IMG/VR virus record: IMGVR_UViG_3300009474_000008
Location: 1-26,422 of that record
DNA from: a virus
Length of the DNA: 26,422 bases
Reading direction: 5' to 3' (one strand)
Shown here in pieces: positions 1,264-18,226 of the stretch; position 1 is the stretch's first letter; the number at the start of each line of letters is the position of its first letter. The notes beneath the pieces are model-generated. The model saw only the letters and a list, made by a program, of their open reading frames with translations, did no database searches and was not told the DNA's origin. The position numbers and the translations under genes are program-made.

Positions 1264-3898
1264 TGGGTTAGTGCAAACTATTCAGCAAGGTGAGCAAAAG
1301 ATAACGAATAGTTCTAAGCAAGCCAACAACCAAATATTAAGCGATGAGCAAAAGGCGCATAACAAGCGTGTTCAGTTTATTAAAGAGGAAACACAGGATT
1401 TAGCGGAACTACAAAAGCGCAAAAAGTTAGCGTACTCACCAGAGGAAATAAGCCAATACAACAAACGCATAGCAGAAACACAGCAACGCATTAAGACGTT
1501 AAGCGGTGAAACTGGCAACCTAACTAAAACGAATGGCAACTTAATTACAAGCTTTAAAAGTATAGCCGTTAGCGTTGGTATTGCCTTTGGTGTTCAGCAG
1601 TTGTTAAGTTTCGGCAGTGAGTTATTAGCATTAGGGCAAAAGTCTAAGACCGTAACAAACGCATTTAATGCTATTGCCACATCAGCGGATTTGGGAGCAC
1701 TAAGATCATCAACAGGGTTCGGGGTAACGGATTTACAGCTAAAGCAATTAGCGGTAAGGGCTAATATGTTTAAAATATCACTTGATACGCTACCAAGCCT
1801 ATTAAAGTTTGCAACGATTAGGGCAGCTGAAACAGGGCAAGAGGTTGACTACTTAGTTAACTCAATTATTGATGGTATTGGTAGGCAATCACCACTAATA
1901 CTTGATAACTTAGGATTGAGTGCTATTGATGTACGTAGTGAATTTAAAAAGACGGGCGACATGGCTAAATCGGTAGCAAACATTATTGAGCGTGACATGG
2001 GTAACTCTGTTACTTCAATAGACGATGCTACTAGTGCCGTTCAACGCTTTAACACATCACTAGCAAATATTAAAGAACGGTTAGCAACAGCCTTTACAAG
2101 TTATACCGCTAATGGATTAAAGGTTATAAGCGATGGATTAACTGATGTATCAAATACATTAGGAGGCTTTGAAACTAGCGTATATGAAATACAAACTGCT
2201 CTAGGGGCTTATGGGGGCGATATTGATATGGTAGTAAAGGCATATGAAAGGTTTGGAACTGTAAATGGTGATGTAATTGATAAAATTAATAAATTACGGG
2301 AGATAACAAATGAAAATGGCGAGGCATGGAAAGAGTTAAGAGATGAAATAGCTGGATTTGATTCGCAAGGTTTATTTGCTAATAAGCTAAAGGAAATAAC
2401 CGATTTAATGCAACCATTTGAAGAGCAAGGTAAAACCGCAACACAAACGTATATTAGTTTAAAAGTAGCATTTTCGTTAGTTTCTGATGCATGGGATGAT
2501 TTTGTTTCTAAAACAAATAACCCAATACAGATTTCGGAAACACTTAAACAACTTAATGAAGAACTAACGGTATTAAAAGAACAATTTGAGAATACCGATA
2601 TAACTAGCCCACTATTCAGAAGTTTACAACAGCAGATTAAAGACCTTGAAGCAAGGATTGAAAGCATAGTAAACCCAACTAACAAAGGTAGCATTGCAGC
2701 CTTAGAAGCGGAAATATCAAGACTAAGTGAGCAACAAAAACAACTTAACACCACCACCGAAGCAAGTATAGAAAAGTATGCTAAACTTCAAACAAAAATA
2801 AATGAACTACAACGCAACATAAGCGAGTTAAAGCGATTGGGCGACCCGTTAGCGCAGTTTAACATTAAGCGTATTGGCGATGAAATAGAGGTAAGTAAAA
2901 AGCAACTTGATGACCTTGAAACCATAATGGAAGGCATAGCGGATAAAACGTTAACCGCTGCAAAAATGTTTAAAAAGTTTGACGATGAGATTAAAAACCT
3001 TAAAAAGTCAACGGGGGATGCTAATATAGGTGGGTTTCTTACTGAAGATACAATTAAGAGACAAGAGGAATTTAATTCTATACTAACGAGTAGCGTAACT
3101 ACTTTAGTAGGCGACCTTACAGGGCTATTTAATTCAATCGGTCAACAACAAGACGATGCAATTAACCGCCAACTCGAAGCGGAGCGTACACGGGCGCAAG
3201 AGCATTTCGATATAATGAAAGGCATTTGGCAAAACCAATTAGATAACGGTCAGATTACCAAAGAGGAACTGTTTAACCAAGAAACAGCCTACAACGAAAA
3301 GATTAACGCACTAGAAGCGAAACAAGTTGAACTACGTAAACAGCAACTAAGAAAACAAGCAATAGCGGAAAAGGCTAACGCATCATTTCAATTGATTGTA
3401 GGCACTACAACGGCAGTAGCTAAGAACCTAGCCAATCCGCCAGCGATTATAGCTATTATAGCAGCAGCGACAGCACAATTAGGAATATTAGCAGCTACAC
3501 CAATTCCAGAGTTTGCAAAAGGTGTTGTAGGCTTACAAGGTGCTGGAACGGAAACAAGCGATAGCATACACGCCAAACTATCTAAAGGGGAAAGCGTAAT
3601 AACAGCGAAAGCAACACGGGCTAACAAAGATGCATTGACCGCAATGAACAACGGCGAGTATGAGAAGTTCGTGCAGCAAAAATACATTATGCCAGCGTTG
3701 GAAGTAAGACGGGAAAAGCAACGTAATAGCTTTGCAGAAACAATATCTAAGTCTATGCAATCGGGTGTTTATGACGACAGCCTACTAATACACGAAACAC
3801 GCAAAAACAAAGCCGTTAGCATACGTAACGCAGACCAGATAGGTAAAGCCACAGCCCGGGAGTTAGGGCGCAACAGTTACTTTAAAAATAGGGTTTAA
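1199..3898 (+). CDS. Tail tape measure protein
   Basis: This 899-residue protein is the longest in the window and sets tail length while acting as scaffold for the tail tube. The N-terminal 110 residues are coiled coil. A hydrophobic segment follows (about 115-145), then a mixed region and long coiled coils at about 440-620 and 655-735. A second hydrophobic stretch rich in Ala and Ile lies at about 745-785. It ends with the GLQG...SIHAKLSKGESVI region and a basic C-terminal tail, as commonly seen in tape measure proteins of Bacteroidetes phages. By the usual 0.15 nm per residue the tail would be roughly 130 nm. The stop shares one base with the next start (TAATG). Confidence 0.9.
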   Translation: MALEQVTVEYNLALEKAKAQFNGLVQTIQQGEQKITNSSKQANNQILSDEQKAHNKRVQFIKEETQDLAELQKRKKLAYSPEEISQYNKRIAETQQRIKTLSGETGNLTKTNGNLITSFKSIAVSVGIAFGVQQLLSFGSELLALGQKSKTVTNAFNAIATSADLGALRSSTGFGVTDLQLKQLAVRANMFKISLDTLPSLLKFATIRAAETGQEVDYLVNSIIDGIGRQSPLILDNLGLSAIDVRSEFKKTGDMAKSVANIIERDMGNSVTSIDDATSAVQRFNTSLANIKERLATAFTSYTANGLKVISDGLTDVSNTLGGFETSVYEIQTALGAYGGDIDMVVKAYERFGTVNGDVIDKINKLREITNENGEAWKELRDEIAGFDSQGLFANKLKEITDLMQPFEEQGKTATQTYISLKVAFSLVSDAWDDFVSKTNNPIQISETLKQLNEELTVLKEQFENTDITSPLFRSLQQQIKDLEARIESIVNPTNKGSIAALEAEISRLSEQQKQLNTTTEASIEKYAKLQTKINELQRNISELKRLGDPLAQFNIKRIGDEIEVSKKQLDDLETIMEGIADKTLTAAKMFKKFDDEIKNLKKSTGDANIGGFLTEDTIKRQEEFNSILTSSVTTLVGDLTGLFNSIGQQQDDAINRQLEAERTRAQEHFDIMKGIWQNQLDNGQITKEELFNQETAYNEKINALEAKQVELRKQQLRKQAIAEKANASFQLIVGTTTAVAKNLANPPAIIAIIAAATAQLGILAATPIPEFAKGVVGLQGAGTETSDSIHAKLSKGESVITAKATRANKDALTAMNNGEYEKFVQQKYIMPALEVRREKQRNSFAETISKSMQSGVYDDSLLIHETRKNKAVSIRNADQIGKATARELGRNSYFKNRV

Positions 3899-6066
3899 TG
3901 GATTACCAATTTACGCTAATAGCCAACGGCAACAGAACACTATTAACCCGTGACCCCGAAGGTTGGGAAGATATTGCATTGACATTAAGCAGAGATGAGC
4001 AATGGCACGGTATAACCCAAGAAGCCAGTGTTGATTTGGGTTTTTGGTGCGATGGTGGTGGCTTTGAAGTTATCAACGCACTATACGAAGCAAACGGGGC
4101 AGATGTTGAGATAATACTAGAAGTGTTGTATTGCGGTGAGTTAGTGTTTAACGGTATCTTACAGCTTAATAGCCTTATTCGTGGAAGGTGCGTATTAAAC
4201 GTGCCTGTGGATAATTTTGATGTAGGAGTAAAGATAAGGCGTAGAATTGAAACCCCTATAAACTTAGAGCAAGCCACTACATTAGACGGTGGCAATGTAA
4301 ACAACTATACATACGGTGGATATGATGTTAATATGCACAGCCGTACTATTTACCTTAAGTCGCAATTACAGCAGTTAGACCCGTTTACTAGGGAAACAAC
4401 ACAGCCAATAACACTAGGATTGCAATATGGCGCATGGATTAATCATGGAATATTAGCCACTAATGGCGACCTAAGTACATTAACCGATAACCCAAGCGTT
4501 GTAGATTTTAGGAATGGCGGTAGCTTTTTGAGGTCAGCTAGTAATATTCAACCGTTCTTTACTAATAATGACCCTATCGTTTCGTTTCCAGTTACATTGG
4601 ATTTGAGTTGGGACTTTAGCGGTATTTATAGTGATATAATATCAAGCCCACAAAGCAGACAGTTGAACGGTAATTGGATATTGCAATTGCATTACGGTTC
4701 TGACTTGGCTACAGGTTCACAAATAACATTAGCCCAAGTAAACGGATATGTAACATCAAATGGAACTTATACAGCCTTGTTTGTTGGCAGTGGCTCAACT
4801 ACTATAACACTTGAAGCAGGGGATAGGATTTGGCTTGCATGGGCAATAACAGGCGGTAACTACTTATTAACTACTGGCGGTGGTACTTTTGATGTTCAAT
4901 TTAAATGGGCTTATCAAAGTTTTAGGCTAACATTAGAAACCAATTCGGGCTTTGATGAAAGCACTACAAAAGCATGGGCAATACACGAACTATTTAGCAG
5001 ACTAACGCACGCTACAAGCAATGAGCCGAGTAGCTTTAGAAGTAACTACTTTGGGCGCACCAATTCACAGCCCGTTAGCTATCCTGTTACGGGGTGCGGT
5101 GGATATACAGCCATAACAAACGGGTTAAAGCTACGACAGTACGAAGATGAGCGTTCAGCCATTGTAGTGTCTATGCAAGACCTTTTAGATAGTATGGATA
5201 GCTTACACGGTATCGGGTGGGGTGTGCTTAATAACAAAATGATTGTAGAGCCTATTGAATATTTTTATCAATCTAACGTACTTAAAAAACTAGACTACGT
5301 GCCAGCATTTGAAATGCGTATAGCACAGAACAAGTACGTTAACGAAATAGAGATAGGTTATGAGAAATGGGAAACGGAAGATGTAAACGGTATTGAAGAA
5401 CCAAATAGCATACATAGCTACTCACTACCTAAAGTACAACGCAAAAACAAGGTTGAAAAGGTTAGCCCGTACATAGGTGGCAGCTATGCTATTGAAACCA
5501 CAAGGCGAAGACCTGTAAGTATATTTACTACTTTCGATTGGAAGTTCGATACTGATAACTTTATACTAGCCTTAAAGCATAACGTAAACGAGTTGAACGT
5601 ATGCGAAAAGGATGAAAACTTCAGCAACGTAGCGAACTTACTAGAACCCGATACAACGTACAATCTAAGATACTCGCCAGCACGTAACCTGTTAAGGCAA
5701 TTAAAAGCATATACGGGCGGTCTATTTAGGAAACCCCTTGAAGATGTAAGGTTTCAAAGTGGCGAGGGCAATATAACCTTAGAAGCCACTGAACTAACTA
5801 ATTGTTTGGGGAACTTTGACGGTGCATTGTTAATCGAAAACCAAGACTTTGTAAGTGGTGAGTTTGCCCCGTATTGGATACCCGAAGTTTACAGTTTCGA
5901 ATATGTGTTAAGCTTTAGCGACTTTCTAGCGATACGCAACAACCCGTATGGCTTGATAGGCTTTAGCGAAACAGACACGGCACACATTTACGGCTACATA
6001 CTAAATTTAGAGTTCAACCTAAAGACAGGCGCAGCAAGTTTTGAACTATTAAGGGCTAATATTTAA
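3898..6066 (+). CDS. Large tail protein, probable tail-tip or baseplate component
   Basis: A 722-residue protein placed directly after the tape measure gene, where siphophages encode the distal tail and tail-associated proteins that build the tail tip. The first 90 residues (DYQFTLIANGNRTLLTRDPEGWEDI onward) look like a beta-sandwich. The middle (about 100-360) is rich in beta strands, Gly and Asn. The C-terminal third has a mixed alpha/beta character with many charged residues. I see no peptidase or lysozyme motif. It is the last gene of this operon, because an operator and promoter follow directly. The tail-tip role is inferred from order and size, not from a recognised domain. Confidence 0.7.
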   Translation: MDYQFTLIANGNRTLLTRDPEGWEDIALTLSRDEQWHGITQEASVDLGFWCDGGGFEVINALYEANGADVEIILEVLYCGELVFNGILQLNSLIRGRCVLNVPVDNFDVGVKIRRRIETPINLEQATTLDGGNVNNYTYGGYDVNMHSRTIYLKSQLQQLDPFTRETTQPITLGLQYGAWINHGILATNGDLSTLTDNPSVVDFRNGGSFLRSASNIQPFFTNNDPIVSFPVTLDLSWDFSGIYSDIISSPQSRQLNGNWILQLHYGSDLATGSQITLAQVNGYVTSNGTYTALFVGSGSTTITLEAGDRIWLAWAITGGNYLLTTGGGTFDVQFKWAYQSFRLTLETNSGFDESTTKAWAIHELFSRLTHATSNEPSSFRSNYFGRTNSQPVSYPVTGCGGYTAITNGLKLRQYEDERSAIVVSMQDLLDSMDSLHGIGWGVLNNKMIVEPIEYFYQSNVLKKLDYVPAFEMRIAQNKYVNEIEIGYEKWETEDVNGIEEPNSIHSYSLPKVQRKNKVEKVSPYIGGSYAIETTRRRPVSIFTTFDWKFDTDNFILALKHNVNELNVCEKDENFSNVANLLEPDTTYNLRYSPARNLLRQLKAYTGGLFRKPLEDVRFQSGEGNITLEATELTNCLGNFDGALLIENQDFVSGEFAPYWIPEVYSFEYVLSFSDFLAIRNNPYGLIGFSETDTAHIYGYILNLEFNLKTGAASFELLRANI

Positions 6067-6068
6067 TT

Positions 6069-6084
6069 TTTAGACTAGCCTAAA
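6069..6084. promoter_or_regulatory. Palindromic operator, copy 1
   Basis: The sequence TTTAGACTAGCCTAAA is a near-perfect palindrome, TTTAG(A)..(C)CTAAA. It sits seven bases before the -33 element of the promoter at 6092-6119, the same distance as in copy 2. Copies 2 and 3 share the arms and the central G. It is probably a binding site for a dimeric phage transcription factor. Confidence 0.6.
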
Positions 6085-9046: not shown

Positions 9047-9697
9047 ATGATTACACTAATACACCCAAGCCGTAACCGCCCCGAAATGGCGTATAAACAA
9101 CTGCAAAACTGGTTAGATAAATCAAGCGGTGAAATAGTAATACAGCATATTTTATCAATAGATATTGATGAACCACAAGCCGACAAGTACAAGGAACTGT
9201 TTACAGCAAGCCTAATCGTACAAACTAACCCAAGTGAGGGTTATGTAGTTGGTGCGACTAACGAGGGCGCAAAGTTCGCTAAAGGGCGTATTTTAATCTA
9301 TTTAAGTGATGACTTTGATTGTCCGCAAGACTGGGACTTGGAAGTAACAAATAGACTAGCTGGCAGACGGTTAACAGCGTTACACGTAAACGATGACTAT
9401 TCTAACTTTAGAAACCTATTTACGATACCGATTATCACAAGGGACTTATACGATAAATGGGGGTTCTTTTGGCATCCAGACTTTAAGTCAATGTTTTGCG
9501 ACAACTTCATGTGGGAGCAAGTAAAGCGTGAGGGCTATATTCTAAAGGCTAAAGACTTAGTATTTAGGCATGACCACCACGACTTAAAACGTGCGGAAAA
9601 AGACGAAACGTACATACGCAGCGGAGCACAATACCACGCAGGTAGGGACGTATTTAACACACTATGCAAACGACTAAAATGGAACTGTCGATACTAA
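9047..9697 (+). CDS. Glycosyltransferase, GT2-like (GT-A fold)
   Basis: A 216-residue protein from ATG 9047. The start MITLIHPSRNRPEMAYKQL is the first beta strand and helix typical of family 2 glycosyltransferases. A strand-plus-acidic motif follows at about 83-91 (LIYLSDDFDCP), the place of the metal- and nucleotide-sugar-binding DxD. A TTG start 48 bases earlier would overlap the previous gene and add a tail without family resemblance, so ATG 9047, two bases after the previous stop, is preferred. The substrate is unknown. It is the first of a run of sugar-modifying genes and could act on virion proteins or on host surface glycans. Confidence 0.75.
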   Translation: MITLIHPSRNRPEMAYKQLQNWLDKSSGEIVIQHILSIDIDEPQADKYKELFTASLIVQTNPSEGYVVGATNEGAKFAKGRILIYLSDDFDCPQDWDLEVTNRLAGRRLTALHVNDDYSNFRNLFTIPIITRDLYDKWGFFWHPDFKSMFCDNFMWEQVKREGYILKAKDLVFRHDHHDLKRAEKDETYIRSGAQYHAGRDVFNTLCKRLKWNCRY

Positions 9698-10260
9698 TAG
9701 CAACGGTTGATAGTAGGGTTAACGAGTTTAACGCACTAAAGGCAGAATTTGACCGCCAGGCGGAAGGTAAGCCCGTAGAGATATTGAGCCTATGCGATAA
9801 CAAAGAAATGCCAATAGGCACTAAACGTCAGAAGTTATTGGAAATGGCTAAAGGGCGGTTTATTGTTTTCTTTGACGATGACGACACCCCCGTTAGTAAC
9901 TACATTGACCTTATACTCCATGCAATTAGTTTTGATGTGGATTGTGTAAGTGTTAAAATACAAATGACAACCAACGGGGCTAACCCACAACTTTGCATAC
10001 ACCGTTTACGCTGTCCAATGGGGGGCGGTAAGCTTGCTAAAAGGTATCATTGTGATTGGATCAGACCGATAACGCATTTTAACCCTGTTTTACGTACCTT
10101 AGCACTAAAGGCAGGTTTTGGCAACGAGCGATACGGTGAAGATGTACAATACTGGAAACGTATTAATAAGCTAGTAAAAAAAGACTATTGGATACCTGAT
10201 GTATTGTTTCATTACAACTACTCTGATAAAACACCACACAACGAAAAGTACGGAATATGA
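9679..10260 (+). CDS. Glycosyltransferase, GT2-like (GT-A fold)
   Basis: A 193-residue protein from ATG 9679, or 198 residues from ATG 9664. I prefer the later start because the family begins with the strand MELSILIATVDSR. The catalytic DxD-like motif FFDDDDTP lies at about 63-70, and GEDVQYWKRI at about 152-161 is the usual acidic acceptor-side motif. It lacks any membrane anchor, so it is probably a soluble cytoplasmic enzyme. It overlaps the previous gene by 19 bases and the next by four (ATGA). Its similarity in layout to the preceding gene suggests a shared pathway, with donor and acceptor unknown. Confidence 0.8.
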   Translation: MELSILIATVDSRVNEFNALKAEFDRQAEGKPVEILSLCDNKEMPIGTKRQKLLEMAKGRFIVFFDDDDTPVSNYIDLILHAISFDVDCVSVKIQMTTNGANPQLCIHRLRCPMGGGKLAKRYHCDWIRPITHFNPVLRTLALKAGFGNERYGEDVQYWKRINKLVKKDYWIPDVLFHYNYSDKTPHNEKYGI

Positions 10261-10925
10261 CAAACCCATTAGTAATAAATGTAGCATTGGGCAAGTGGTA
10301 TCCAAAAGGGCAACAAAGGCTAATAGAGAGTCTTAACGTACACGGCTGGCAATCTGTTAAAGGTTGGACAGATAGACCCGTAGAAGGCTTTAATACCGAT
10401 AACCCGTACACTTGTAAAGCTAGTGCACTTCAGTACGCTTTAGACAAAAAACACGATGTAGTTTTATGGTGCGATGCTTCAATATACGCTATCAAGCCTA
10501 TCAATAAGCTAATGGAGTTAGTTGACAAACAGGGCTATTTTTTTTGGGGAAGTGGTGAAAATTGCGCCCAAACGGTTTCCGATGCCTGTTTAAAGCTATT
10601 CGGATTAACAAGGGACGAAGCAGAATTTATACCCGAATGCGCATCAAGTGTGTTTGGTATAAACTTAAATACTTACATAGGTAGGGAATTTGCGGAACGG
10701 TTTATAAAGTACACTAAGCTAGGTGCAGCGGATGGGAGTAGGCAACACGACAACCAATCACAAGACCCACGTTTTAAGTACCACAGGCAAGACCAGAGCG
10801 TTGCAAGCTTAGTTATGCACGAACTGGGTATGGAATTAGAGCACACCCGTTACGTTGGTTATAAAGCCTATTTAATACACTATGATAATACTGAAAATAT
10901 TTGTTTACTAAATGAAGGAATGTAA
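10257..10925 (+). CDS. Glycosyltransferase-like protein
   Basis: A 222-residue protein that begins with a beta strand (LVINVALGKWYPKGQQRLIESL) and carries VVLWCDASIYAIKP at about 67-80, where the DAS takes the place of a DxD motif. A late RQDQSVASLVMHELGM segment resembles the conserved Asp/Gln region of enzymes that use nucleotide sugars. The fold is probably GT-A, but the family is less clear than for its two upstream neighbours. It overlaps the upstream gene by four bases and shares one base with the next start (TAATG). Confidence 0.6.
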   Translation: MTNPLVINVALGKWYPKGQQRLIESLNVHGWQSVKGWTDRPVEGFNTDNPYTCKASALQYALDKKHDVVLWCDASIYAIKPINKLMELVDKQGYFFWGSGENCAQTVSDACLKLFGLTRDEAEFIPECASSVFGINLNTYIGREFAERFIKYTKLGAADGSRQHDNQSQDPRFKYHRQDQSVASLVMHELGMELEHTRYVGYKAYLIHYDNTENICLLNEGM

Positions 10926-11524
10926 TGAAAGAAGATAATTTAAACAAGCTAGGTTTTGAGGGCGACCCCCACGTATTGCCTGTGATTAAAAAACTAGCTA
11001 AGAAACACAAAGTAGGGGCAATCATTGAAACGGGCACATTCTTTGGTAACACAACCGCTAAGTTTGCGGAGTTAGGTTTGCCAGTGGTAACAATTGAAAG
11101 CCAAAGCAAACAATTTAGCGCAGCGTACAGCAACCTAAAGAAAAAGGGTTTTGATGTTGACAAATACCAAGACGGTACTATTTGGATGGTTAACGCTCAT
11201 TCACAAGATGTATTAGGGCAAGTGATTGACAACACGGGGCAAGATGCTATCTTGTTTTATCTTGATGCGCATTGGGAAAGCCACTTACCACTATTGAACG
11301 AACTTGACCACATAGCCAAAAGCGGTGTAAAAGCGGTTATAGTTATTCATGACTTCCAAGTGCCAAACAAAGATTTTGGGTTTGATGTGTACGGTGGTCA
11401 GCCTTTAAACTATGAATTTATAAAGGACAAACTAGATACCATTTACCCTAAAGGCTACAACTATTTTTACAACGAGGTAGCAGAAGGGCATAAAAGGGGT
11501 TTAATATTTGTAGAACCGAAATAA
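10925..11524 (+). CDS. Class I SAM-dependent methyltransferase-like protein
   Basis: A 199-residue protein. Residues about 32-45 (AIIETGTFFGNTTAKF) form the glycine-rich motif I that binds S-adenosylmethionine in Rossmann-type methyltransferases. The acidic end of the next strand (VTIES, about 56-60) would hold the ribose. FYLDAHWESHLPLLNEL (about 111-127) and VIVIHDF (about 139-145) match the metal-binding Asp/His region of the CmcI/TylF (methyltransferase 24) type. It closes the glycosyltransferase operon, so O-methylation of a sugar is a reasonable guess. A terminator follows 33 bases after the stop. Confidence 0.7.
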   Translation: MKEDNLNKLGFEGDPHVLPVIKKLAKKHKVGAIIETGTFFGNTTAKFAELGLPVVTIESQSKQFSAAYSNLKKKGFDVDKYQDGTIWMVNAHSQDVLGQVIDNTGQDAILFYLDAHWESHLPLLNELDHIAKSGVKAVIVIHDFQVPNKDFGFDVYGGQPLNYEFIKDKLDTIYPKGYNYFYNEVAEGHKRGLIFVEPK

Positions 11525-11557
11525 AGTATTATCTTAGCGGAGTGTTTTAGTGTGTTG

Positions 11558-11590
11558 CCCTCAATCCCGTAAGGTTGGGGGTATTTTTTT
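11558..11590 (+). terminator. Rho-independent terminator after the glycosyltransferase operon
   Basis: CCCTCAATC at 11558-11566 pairs with GGTTGGGGG at 11573-11581 through nine base pairs, two of them G-U, with a six-base loop. A run of seven T follows at 11584-11590. It separates the glycosyltransferase operon from the tail-protein unit. Confidence 0.8.
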
Positions 11591-11607
11591 GCCTATCAAA
11601 AAATAAA

Positions 11608-11623
11608 TTTAGATTAGTCTAAA
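11608..11623. promoter_or_regulatory. Palindromic operator, copy 2
   Basis: TTTAGATTAGTCTAAA is a palindrome apart from its centre. It shares arms and spacing with copy 1: seven bases separate it from the TTTG at 11631. Confidence 0.6.
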
Positions 11624-11626
11624 AAA

Positions 11627-11657
11627 TTTGTTTGGCAATATAAAAAGATTATCTTTG
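11627..11657 (+). promoter_or_regulatory. Bacteroidetes-type promoter for the major tail protein gene
   Basis: TTTG occurs twice in a row at 11627-11634. TATCTTTG at 11650-11657 is a full match to TAnnTTTG. Transcription should start near 11662, which is exactly where the structured leader begins. Confidence 0.75.
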
Positions 11658-11658
11658 T

Positions 11659-11741
11659 AAGGTCGAAGGACTTTAAACTACGTGCCAATTTTACCCCACA
11701 GGCATAAATAAGTTGGGGTGTTAACTTATAACACCTATCAA
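11659..11741 (+). promoter_or_regulatory. Structured mRNA leader (pseudoknot plus hairpin), copy 1
   Basis: Four helices can be drawn. AAGGTC (11659-11664) pairs with GACTTT (11669-11674) around a GAAG loop. GTGCC (11682-11686) pairs with GGCAT (11701-11705). ACCCCA (11693-11698) pairs with TGGGGT (11714-11719). The second and third helices cross each other, giving an H-type pseudoknot with a U-rich first loop, a two-base second loop and an eight-base A-rich third loop. Last, GGTGTTA (11717-11723) pairs with TAACACC (11729-11735), six bases before the ATG. The order, loop lengths and several loop sequences recur before the capsid gene, with compensatory changes in the helices. The pseudoknot and the 3' hairpin share a few bases, so they may stack or compete. 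Confidence 0.65.
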
Positions 11742-12281
11742 ATGGCTTTTGATTATTGTAATGCCCCACTTACCGACCATGAACTAATTGCGTGCGGTAA
11801 CTGGAAGAAAGGCAGTATTAACGCTGTCGCTATTATCGAAGATGCAACCCTATTAACAGACTACGAAAGTATAACGGATTGGAACGCTGCTATTGCTGCT
11901 GGCGATGTAAAAATCATTAAGCAAGTAAAAGGCGAACTACCAGAGCCAAGCGTTATTGAAGGTTCTAACCCTGTTGGCGGTGGTCGTGAAAATATCACAG
12001 ACGGTTATAACTATACCCTCGAGGTACAAGATTATAACGTGTCAGCAGATAACGACACGTTTTACGAAAGCTTAAACCCACGTATTGCGGCTATCGCTTA
12101 CTTCATGCCTAAGACGGGCGAGATTGGCGTAGTATTGCAAGAGGTTACGTTTAACGCTCGCCCTGTTGTGCCAATGTCAAGCACTGAAAAACAGCACTAC
12201 CTATTGACGGCTAATTGGGATGCGCCTAGCAATGAATTTCCTTTGCGTTACACTGCACCTGCTGGAATATTTACCGTGTGA
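11742..12281 (+). CDS. Probable major tail (tube) protein
   Basis: A 179-residue protein from ATG 11742. An upstream GTG at 11718 is in frame but lies inside the 3' hairpin of the conserved leader, so it is rejected. The protein has the size and beta-rich character of siphophage tail-tube subunits, with a flexible loop in the middle (EGSNPVGGGRENITDG, about 76-91). It has its own strong promoter, operator and leader, as expected for a protein made in many copies. Its codon use is also less dominated by TTA/CTA than that of its neighbours. The last four bases overlap the next start (GTGA). It could instead be another abundant virion protein. Confidence 0.6.
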   Translation: MAFDYCNAPLTDHELIACGNWKKGSINAVAIIEDATLLTDYESITDWNAAIAAGDVKIIKQVKGELPEPSVIEGSNPVGGGRENITDGYNYTLEVQDYNVSADNDTFYESLNPRIAAIAYFMPKTGEIGVVLQEVTFNARPVVPMSSTEKQHYLLTANWDAPSNEFPLRYTAPAGIFTV

Positions 12282-13141
12282 GTAAGGGTGTAATATTGTT
12301 GGCACTTGGAAAACCTGCCTATGGGCAGTTTGCCTATAATATGGCGTTGTCTATACGTGCCTACAATACTACAATACCAATACACCTACTTTATGAGCCT
12401 AGTGTTAAGCTAAGCCATGAACTAGATGTATTTACCCACAAAACGATAATAGACCCCGTACACGTGTACCAAGATGGTAAATTTACCCCTGCATTGGCTA
12501 AACTCAATCTCTATAAATACTTGTTGTTTGACGAGAATATTTATGTTGATGTGGATGGTATTTGTATAGCAGATGTTGAGCGTTGTTTTAAACAAACAAA
12601 AGACTACGCAGCGGAAAGCTTAGGGTATGAGCCATTAAGCAACAAAGAATACGGGTGGCGTATGCATTGGGCAACAGGCGAAACAATAATGAAGCATTAC
12701 GGGCTAAAACCCGACACAATGATACCGTTTATAAACAGTTCTTTTCAATTTATACGAAAGGGTAAGTTTGCCGAAAAGCTATACGCACAAGCGTTAATGA
12801 ACTTCAATAACTGCATACCGTTGAGGGAATTAAAAAACGATTGGGGTAAAAGCCAACCCGATGAACTGTATATGAATGTAGCGTGTGGGCAGTTAAGTTA
12901 CGACCCTACTATTGAGCCACAAGTTTACTTTAGAACTCGCTCAATGGCTGGCGGTAATGAAACGGTTGAAACCTTATCTAAGAAATACACCTTTGTTGGT
13001 TTGTACGGTACTAAGGTAACTAACCACAGAGTTGTAAAGATGCTTTATAATAGTGTTGTGGGTGGTATATTCAATAAAATGGGTAAGCCACACGTACACA
13101 AGATTGAACAATTGTTGAACTTTAAATTTATGGGAAGATGA
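12278..13141 (+). CDS. GT8-like glycosyltransferase coupled to the tail protein gene
   Basis: A 287-residue protein starting with GTG, four bases of which overlap the previous stop. The first strand is GVILLALGKPAYGQFAYNMALSI. KLNLYKYLLFDENIYVDVDGICI (about 72-96) is the DxD region of retaining GT-A enzymes of family 8, where DVD binds the metal and nucleotide sugar. PFINSSFQFIRKG (about 150-162) matches the 'N-S-G/S' acceptor motif of that family, and an NDWGKSQPDELYMNVAC segment follows. The tight coupling to the tail gene suggests that its target may be the tail protein. The donor is unknown. Confidence 0.75.
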   Translation: MSKGVILLALGKPAYGQFAYNMALSIRAYNTTIPIHLLYEPSVKLSHELDVFTHKTIIDPVHVYQDGKFTPALAKLNLYKYLLFDENIYVDVDGICIADVERCFKQTKDYAAESLGYEPLSNKEYGWRMHWATGETIMKHYGLKPDTMIPFINSSFQFIRKGKFAEKLYAQALMNFNNCIPLRELKNDWGKSQPDELYMNVACGQLSYDPTIEPQVYFRTRSMAGGNETVETLSKKYTFVGLYGTKVTNHRVVKMLYNSVVGGIFNKMGKPHVHKIEQLLNFKFMGR

Positions 13142-15995: not shown

Positions 15996-16011
15996 TTTAG
16001 ATTTGTCTAAA
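15996..16011. promoter_or_regulatory. Palindromic operator, copy 3
   Basis: TTTAGATTTGTCTAAA has the same arms as copies 1 and 2. Unlike them it lies downstream of the nearest promoter-like sequence and only 13 bases before the ATG at 16025. A protein bound here would block rather than assist that promoter, or the RNA copy could form a hairpin before the start codon. Confidence 0.5.
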
Positions 16012-17082: not shown

Positions 17083-17185
17083 GCCGAAGGGCTAATACTA
17101 AGTGTCGAGGGACAATAAAACCACGTGCTATTTTCTTACCAGAGCATTATAATTAGGTAGGGATTAACTTTTAATCTCTATAAAA
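17082..17185 (+). promoter_or_regulatory. Structured mRNA leader (pseudoknot plus hairpin), copy 2
   Basis: AGCC-GAAG-GGCT at 17082-17093 and TGTC-GAGG-GACA at 17103-17114 are two small hairpins like the 5' hairpin of copy 1. GTGCT (17125-17129) pairs with AGCAT (17143-17147). CTTACC (17135-17140) pairs with GGTAGG (17156-17161), crossing the former. The second loop is two and the third eight bases, as in copy 1. GGGATTAA (17160-17167) pairs with TTAATCTC (17171-17178), seven bases before the ATG at 17186. No promoter is evident here, so this copy probably lies inside a longer mRNA. Compared with copy 1, GTGCC/GGCAT has become GTGCT/AGCAT and the 3' stem differs at several paired positions. 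Confidence 0.65.
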
Positions 17186-18226
17186 ATGAGTTATGAATCT
17201 AGTGCTTACGTTAGCTGTCCAGCTATCCAAGCCAAACTAAACGAAATCTTTAACAATGCGGACTTAACGCAAAGGCGTTATATTCCCCCTTTCCTAAGTG
17301 CGATAATTTCGCCACTTAACACTCAAGGTGTAACACTTCAACAACGTATTGGCGGTAATGGTCGCAAACGTGAAGTTCAAGCGGTTTACAGCCCACGACT
17401 ATGTACTAACAGCGTAAGTTCAAGCCGTTTAGATGCTTGTACCGCTGGCGACAAAGTAGGCGAACTATCGCAAACTTACGAGGTTGACCCAGATGCAGGT
17501 TCATTTATCACTAAGAACTTGGAACTACGTGACCTTATTGACACTTGCGAAACCGATAGCTTTTATGTAGCTAACACAATCAATAAAATGATTGATGCGG
17601 TTGTACGTGTTATGGGTACTACCACACTAGCGGAAGCTGCTGTGTTGTTTGGCGTACACGCTGACACTGGTACTACTGGCGCAGTAAGCGTAAGCACTCA
17701 AATCGGTAACAACGTAAGCGATGACATCATCACTAAGTTGTCTTACCTTTTGAAAATTAGCGAATACTCAAACAATGAAGCTTGGGTAGTTGGTGGTTCA
17801 TTTGACTTCAATCGCTACTATTCAGCAGTTGGCTTGTCTTGTTGCACCGATGCTTTGAACTTTGACTTGGCAGCGTACAACGGTCAATATGGACCGATGC
17901 CATTGTTTGACAAAGGCGTTGATGCTGCTTGGGGTGATAACCACGTTGGTTTGTTGTTGCCTAACGCTTTGCAATTGATTACTTACAACGAGTATGTAGG
18001 TGAGCGTGGTATTCGTGTAATTGACACCGAAACTTACAAACAAGGCACAATAGTTGACCCTGCCACTGGCATTATGTTCGACTACTCTGCTAAGTTTGAT
18101 TGCGGAACTTGGACATTCTCTTTGGGTCTTGCTCACCAATTGGTAGCTGCACCTGACGATATGTTCTATGCTTGCGATGAGTTGCGTGGAACGAATGGAT
18201 TTTGGGACTTTGTTATCGCTAACTAA
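17186..18226 (+). CDS. Major capsid protein
   Basis: A 346-residue protein in the standard place after the scaffold. The start MSYESSAYVSCPAIQAKLNEIF, the middle AWVVGGSFDFNRYYS and the end GIMFDYSAKFDCGTWTFSLGLAHQL read like capsid proteins of Bacteroidetes siphophages, presumably of the HK97 fold. It has many Cys residues (about nine), which could give cross-links or metal sites. Leu codons change sharply inside the gene: TTA/CTA dominate up to about 17640 and TTG almost exclusively after it. A structured leader precedes it. The next gene starts two bases after its stop. Confidence 0.85.
   Translation: MSYESSAYVSCPAIQAKLNEIFNNADLTQRRYIPPFLSAIISPLNTQGVTLQQRIGGNGRKREVQAVYSPRLCTNSVSSSRLDACTAGDKVGELSQTYEVDPDAGSFITKNLELRDLIDTCETDSFYVANTINKMIDAVVRVMGTTTLAEAAVLFGVHADTGTTGAVSVSTQIGNNVSDDIITKLSYLLKISEYSNNEAWVVGGSFDFNRYYSAVGLSCCTDALNFDLAAYNGQYGPMPLFDKGVDAAWGDNHVGLLLPNALQLITYNEYVGERGIRVIDTETYKQGTIVDPATGIMFDYSAKFDCGTWTFSLGLAHQLVAAPDDMFYACDELRGTNGFWDFVIAN

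Follow-up and report, generated by a model that had tools for sequence, protein, structure and literature searches.

A covarying H-type pseudoknot leader precedes the probable tail-tube gene and the major capsid gene in a group of tailed phages

The nearest phage example of the element described here is the leader of gene 32 in phages T4, T2 and RB69, in which an H-type pseudoknot is located upstream of the start codon and separated from it by an AU-rich spacer (PMC3014915). This pseudoknot is single, lies 67 nt upstream of the gene for a single-stranded DNA-binding protein in a host that uses Shine-Dalgarno sites, and the gene is repressed by its own product. The nearest mechanism is that of the tisB mRNA of E. 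coli, where an H-type standby-site pseudoknot near the 5' end recruits the 30S subunit together with ribosomal protein S1. SELEX showed nanomolar affinity of S1 for an H-type pseudoknot, the protein requires one to load the 30S subunit on this mRNA, and standby pseudoknots were also predicted in zor and shoB of E. coli (PMC7708055). The tisB knot acts ~100 nt from a sequestered Shine-Dalgarno-type site in a toxin mRNA and has no homology to the leaders reported below. The nearest tandem arrangement is the STAXI motif (Weinberg 2010), a pseudoknot repeated two to three times with UUCG tetraloops, found near genes for SSB, integrase, topoisomerase and antirestriction proteins (PMC2864571). Furthermore, the intergenic IRES of Dicistroviridae places several ribosome-recruiting pseudoknots ahead of a capsid-protein cistron; its mechanism is eukaryotic, its pseudoknots are reported to be dispensable in E. 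coli (PMC9458429), and it is not homologous either.

We analysed a 26.4-kb IMG/VR record (the window) carrying late genes of a tailed phage, in which one pseudoknot leader precedes a probable tail-tube gene and another the major capsid gene. None of the gene 32, tisB and STAXI elements is placed as these leaders are. In contrast to gene 32, the leaders are usually tandem before the capsid gene, end 20-32 nt upstream of the start codon and belong to virion structural genes, as the downstream products model as a tail tube and an HK97 capsid rather than a single-stranded DNA-binding protein; unlike tisB, they have neither a Shine-Dalgarno sequence nor a distant standby site. STAXI differs in gene context, and the parsed elements contain no TTCG tetraloop and have no Rfam match. 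In fact, none of the 4227 Rfam 15 families matched the window at E≤1, and a search of 60 kb of relatives gave four matches, none of which reached the gathering score or fell on a leader; the models of preQ1, SAM-II and other pseudoknot riboswitches accordingly had no match at gathering score. No paper matching the element was found among open-licence PMC papers, and a description elsewhere is possible. As far as searched, the leaders therefore represent a new, undescribed cis-acting RNA element, in agreement with the first-pass annotation, which knew of no described RNA of this form.

The gene following leader A (gene A, plus strand, 11742-12281) encodes a protein of 179 amino acids. Its AlphaFold2 model is beta-rich (pLDDT 78), and the top Foldseek matches are tail-tube proteins (monocin MttP best, E 4e-4), with further matches to tail-tube proteins of a gene transfer agent and of siphophages; because the TM-scores are just 0.36-0.49, the tail-tube identity is probable. 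For the 346-amino-acid product of the gene following leader B (plus strand, 17186-18226), structural models suggest a major capsid protein of HK97 fold (AlphaFold2; best Foldseek match a phage capsid, E 1.8e-8). Neither protein had a match in PHROG or Pfam, no sequence similar to the capsid protein, portal or gene A product was found in 50,697 phage records (tblastn for capsid and gene A), and a portal profile scan of GTDB revealed no prophage.

Some further features of the window surround these genes. At 11556-11591, an inverted repeat rich in G+C runs into a stretch of T (CCCTCAATCCCGTAAGGTTGGGGGTATTTTTTT); terminator-like when read by eye, it looks like a signal that would end the preceding transcript ahead of the leader A promoter. 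The palindrome TTTAGAYTNGYCTAAA occurs at 6069-6084, 11608-11623 and 15996-16011, each time ahead of a structural-gene start, and at homologous places in a relative (L015, 2325-2340, 8063-8078 and 12451-12466; chance expectation 0.45 and 0.40 matches); the copy at 11608-11623 adjoins the leader A promoter, and the palindrome is a candidate operator of a late-gene regulator. Glycosyltransferase-like genes lie in a run between the tail genes and gene A (9664-11524) and at 12278-13141; the homolog of one of them in the closest relative (L015:6216-6797) has a PHROG glycosyltransferase match.

Leader A (11659-11741) is located between a Bacteroidota-type promoter (TTTG-N19-TATCTTTG, exact pattern match at 11627-11657, plus strand) and gene A, whose ATG is at 11742. 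All elements of both leaders lie on the plus strand, and every element named in the first-pass annotation is present where that annotation had placed it. The H-type pseudoknot of leader A (11682-11719) consists of stem 1 (S1), GTGCC (11682-11686) with GGCAT (11701-11705), and stem 2 (S2), ACCCCA (11693-11698) with TGGGGT (11714-11719), connected by loops L1 (AATTTT), L2 (CA) and L3 (AAATAAGT). Upstream of it is a GTC-GAAG-GAC hairpin (11662-11671), with a loop AG complementary to the CT immediately 5' of ACGTGC; since the homologous element before most capsid genes is a full pseudoknot, this hairpin is read as a degenerate distal pseudoknot. Downstream follows a 3' hairpin, GGTGTTA-ACTTA-TAACACC (11717-11735). 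Leader B (17100-17185) is located between the stop of a putative scaffold gene (17082) and the capsid gene (ATG at 17186). Its distal pseudoknot (17103-17122) is degenerate, with TGTC (17103-17106) pairing with GACA (17111-17114) and the loop bases GG (17109-17110) with CC (17121-17122); relatives have a full S2 of 4-7 bp at this place. The proximal H-type pseudoknot (17125-17161) is formed by S1, GTGCT (17125-17129) with AGCAT (17143-17147), and S2, CTTACC (17135-17140) with GGTAGG (17156-17161), with loops L1 ATTTT, L2 AG and L3 TATAATTA, and is again followed by a 3' hairpin, GGGATTA-ACTTT-TAATCTC (17160-17178). Directly 3' of the scaffold stop there is an additional C-GAAG-G hairpin (GCC-GAAG-GGC, 17083-17093), which could be, together with a downstream CT, a third degenerate knot; three knots are apparently present ahead of the capsid gene of L157.

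The closest relative, G001 (IMGVR_UViG_3300046004_001078), is 86% identical to the window in this region at the nucleotide level and, with 44,064 bp and a 127-bp direct terminal repeat, is probably complete on account of this repeat. In the window as well as in G001, leaders A and B are the top-scoring plus-strand matches to the pseudoknot shape. A search of viral contigs with the DNA pattern ACGTGC-N-GCAT-N-TTAACTTWTAA returned the close relative only, together with chance matches (unrelated L005-L007); the window's own motif is too narrow, and protein searches were needed to find the family. With a profile of the tail protein encoded at 3898-6066, relatives of graded similarity were obtained, among them L022 (portal 46% identical), whose capsid gene is preceded by the same knot in altered stem sequences. 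A portal profile then yielded 77 loci and a capsid profile 80, the two sets overlapping, so that ~100 related IMG/VR contigs were obtained by the portal and capsid searches. Among cultured phages, the tail gene found five distant records; JQ and Arctus_1, two of these records in which a capsid gene is annotated, have only a few bases ahead of it, leaving no space for a leader. The element is absent from L071 and L072, more distant relatives with capsids.

Because the contigs are redundant, we give dereplicated counts. The element is present before gene A in 25 of 27 leaders and before the capsid gene in all 22, with a relaxed stem 1 required in a few (gene A of L154 and L215, capsid gene of L154 and L222) and a weak gene A pseudoknot in L086; it is a tandem pair in 18 of the 22 capsid leaders. 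Whether or not a promoter is present, the proximal pseudoknot of nearly every leader of either gene ends 20-32 nt upstream of the ATG (20-31 nt for gene A); the distal capsid pseudoknot ends 46-72 nt upstream of it, mostly 54-62. The exceptions are marine relatives, L124 and L219 having the gene A element at -56 and L124, L219 and L220 a single capsid element at -84 to -86. Stem 1 has the form UGnn/nnCA (UGCC/GGCA, UGUC/GACA, UGGC/GCCA, UGGU/ACCA), its UG..CA ends being imposed by the parser; in a few lineages it is replaced by another paired stem (GGCT/AGCC versus GGGT/ACCC in gene A of L124 and L219; CGGC/GCCG and TCCC/GGGA in the capsid leader of L154). Stem 2 comprises 3-7 bp and occurs as 43 distinct self-complementary sequences across 59 anchored pseudoknots, and loop 3 is A-rich (AUAAA, UUAAA, AUAAG). 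At a score of at least 22, 80 contigs (1.03 Mb) contained 131 plus-strand matches, 85 of which immediately precede gene A or the capsid gene; the remaining 46, like the 78 minus-strand matches, are located elsewhere and mark the chance level. Of the plus-strand matches located up to 80 nt from an open reading frame, just three distinct ones precede other frames. This clustering of the strong copies assigns the element to gene A and the capsid gene.

The fold is best seen by comparing leader B of the window with that of G001, where three double changes each keep a base pair: TGTC/GACA to TGCC/GGCA in the upstream stem, GTGCT/AGCAT to GTGCC/GGCAT in S1 and CTTACC/GGTAGG to CTTACT/AGTAGG in S2. 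These changes alone are good evidence for the predicted knot. Furthermore, the distal loop pairing is GG/CC in the window, AGG/CCT in G001 and ACG/CGT in L022. A best-pseudoknot score of at least 17 was reached by 15 of 18 A leaders and 12 of 13 capsid leaders, compared with 7-9% of dinucleotide shuffles; note that the score thresholds were set after the first sequences had been seen. In place of a covariance model, for which MAFFT misplaces the variable loops, chimeras of two unrelated leaders were used, one supplying the 5' half and the other the 3' half, which is a fair control because the parser maximises pairing. The mean stem-2 score of the 59 pseudoknots was 11.7 for true halves and 5.4 for chimeras, and a score of at least 12 was obtained for 49% of the former versus 4% of the latter. 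A formal pair count for the capsid distal pseudoknot in 15 sequences found 91% of cells paired versus 76.5% after shuffling (0 of 500 shuffles as high) and 35-47% when slid, with both sides changed in six of nine pairs. G-U intermediates (TAGCA/TGCTA, TGGCA/TGCTA and TGGCA/TGCCA in L106, L109 and L129; GGGG/CCCC, GGGG/CTCC and GGAG/CTCC in L098, L140 and L115) suggest selection on RNA. With two helices, the second formed by the hairpin loop and downstream bases, and with compensatory change in both, we regard it as shown by comparative evidence that the leaders fold as H-type pseudoknots. The lineages L227 and L228, whose capsids are 25-26% identical to the query, turned up in the last viral scan after the pseudoknot rule had been fixed and serve as a prospective check. 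The capsid leader of L227 has tandem pseudoknots (UGCU-ua-ACAUC-AGCA-uugua-GAUGU and a second one), that of L228 has tandem pseudoknots as read by eye, and a candidate pseudoknot lies ahead of gene A in both; at the sequence level, these lineages confirmed the predicted leaders. In L229-L242 (~24% capsid identity), a different long-range knot was seen by eye ~60-115 nt before the capsid ATG, whose loop and partner covary (CCCAAA/UUUGGG, CCCAU/AUGGG, CCCAAU/AUUGGG); in these contigs, the homolog of gene A follows the capsid gene and has no such knot.

The central claim of the first-pass annotation, a covarying pseudoknot leader before the probable tail-tube gene that recurs before the capsid gene, is thus borne out by the double changes in G001 and the covariation across the family: further copies in relatives and compensation at their paired positions were looked for, and both were found. 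Its details hold for a narrower group. The shared order of elements is present in both window leaders but is specific to the window clade, the family-wide pattern being one or two H-type pseudoknots. What had been read as a plain C-GARG-G hairpin is a remnant of the distal pseudoknot, with the loop pairs GG/CC, AGG/CCT and ACG/CGT. The 3' hairpin is not a general part, as it is confined to the window clade, where it overlaps and competes with the 3' arm of stem 2 (S2'), and is missing in the major clade; nor is the ACTT loop conserved family-wide. ACGTGC as a conserved core was rejected, being confined to the leaders of the window clade; its hits elsewhere were unrelated.

Bacteroidota ribosomes mask their anti-Shine-Dalgarno sequence and do not use Shine-Dalgarno pairing. 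The promoter, the features of the initiation region and the helicase of G001, which shares 53% identity with the helicase of Flavobacterium columnare phages, point to a Bacteroidota bacterium as the host. Of 27 dereplicated A leaders, 21 carry the promoter motif TAnnTTTG 65-84 nt upstream of the ATG (expected, 1.7), and in A leaders the pseudoknot starts 13-26 nt past the promoter; among the 22 capsid leaders, a promoter can be recognised in just one. The last 20 nt before the ATG have a G+C content of 18%, and A prevails at -3 (0.78/0.86), -6 (0.74/0.82) and -12 (0.89/0.59). Not one of 49 leaders contains a Shine-Dalgarno-like run, as anticipated in the first-pass annotation for a host lacking such sites. 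In Flavobacterium johnsoniae, the same features were measured as tuning initiation, the region from -20 to +20 is little paired, and S1 was proposed to replace Shine-Dalgarno pairing in Bacteroidota (PMC6847099).

Three functions have to be weighed, namely mRNA stability, translation and sensing of the product, and sequence alone cannot separate them; translation is favoured, as the distance from the knot to the AUG is constant for both genes, with and without a promoter. We give roughly even chances to the leaders being a ribosome-recruiting translation enhancer that works without a Shine-Dalgarno sequence. The pseudoknot adjoins what would be the landing zone, from -20 to the AUG, rich in A and U and largely unpaired; it would hold the 30S subunit there, most plausibly via ribosomal protein bS1, and would stop upstream RNA from folding into the initiation region. 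A ribosome unable to use Shine-Dalgarno pairing could in this way give high output of the two most abundant virion proteins, and two copies before the capsid gene would fit the greater demand for capsid protein. A tisB-like role in recruiting S1 and the 30S subunit is a candidate that draws on position and on the context without Shine-Dalgarno sequences; the S1-pseudoknot precedent comes from E. coli, which counts against carrying it over to Bacteroidota bS1. Also against an enhancer, the dicistrovirus IRES is reported to work in E. coli via S1 with no need for its pseudoknots (PMC9458429), the window clade has an added hairpin within the -20 zone, and L124 and L219 carry the gene A element at -56. 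Protection of the RNA is an equally possible role of the pseudoknot. In that case, the knots would keep ribonucleases off the 5' ends of two messages, the tail-tube mRNA and a processed capsid mRNA, and raise both relative to their neighbours. The knot of the A leaders is close to the transcript 5' end (13-26 nt past the promoter), a roadblock within the operon would favour the capsid over the scaffold message, and disruption of the dicistrovirus pseudoknots is reported to alter mRNA stability in E. coli (PMC9458429). However, what the two genes have in common is the distance to the ATG and not to the 5' end, with a promoter in just one of 22 capsid leaders; no processing site was found, and a stabiliser has no need to end 20-32 nt ahead of a start codon, so that we consider this function rather unlikely. 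A search for the RNase J family, intended to test the stabiliser reading, gave matches in nearly all control genomes too and so carries no weight either way.

Repression by a capsid, tail-tube or other phage protein that binds the knots when abundant, as gp32 does on the gene 32 mRNA with its regulatory pseudoknot and AU-rich stretch before the AUG (PMC3014915), would be consistent with an element common to two genes and with the conserved UG..CA ends of S1, which might be a protein-recognition site. Yet S2 and L1 vary freely in sequence, leaving only the shape and S1 for a protein to recognise, no dedicated RNA-binding protein was identified, and, as the ribosome footprint does not cover the element, repression would require spreading; we regard an autogenous operator as doubtful. 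The 3' hairpin of the window clade and S2' have bases in common, and in marine relatives the 5' arm of S1 is also complementary to bases beside the ATG (TAGTTGC/GCAACTA, AAGTTGC/GCAACTT and AGTTGTCG/CGACAACT; gene A, L076:5342, L086:4793 and L215:1406; capsid gene, L124:13497, L219:9501 and L220:4703), a possible off-state that would exclude the pseudoknot. Both pairings look more like a switch than an enhancer, that is, a ligand- or state-sensing device in which pseudoknot and alternative hairpin are mutually exclusive and the start region is exposed or hidden. Neither pairing exists in the major clade, though, no unpaired bases suitable for a ligand pocket are conserved beyond the A-rich L3, and the downstream genes are structural rather than metabolic, all of which makes such a switch quite improbable. 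Least probable of all is an element acting on transcription, be it a put-like antiterminator on RNA polymerase or a DNA-level signal: the A leaders do open a transcription unit past the terminator-like repeat at 11556-11591, but the elements keep a fixed distance to the ATG, those of the capsid gene lie within the operon and lack a promoter, and the G-U intermediates argue for RNA.

Since the fold is kept while nearly all paired bases change, sequence-based scans can miss such structures, and this RNA family, undescribed as far as searched, belongs to an uncultured phage group for which searches with capsid, portal and gene A found no relative in 50,697 phage records. The element, compact and strongly covarying, is reserved for two genes whose products are probably the most abundant proteins of the virion. 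Beyond enhancement of translation as such, we hold it possible, with somewhat less than even confidence, that the leaders are a phage-encoded, Shine-Dalgarno-independent ribosome recruiter, a small bacterial analogue of an IRES, in which the number and placement of tandem knots would set the output of capsid and tail-tube protein. For the question of how strong messages win ribosomes in Bacteroidota, this element offers a natural, easily mutated handle, and it might serve as a part for expressing genes at high level in Flavobacterium and Bacteroides.
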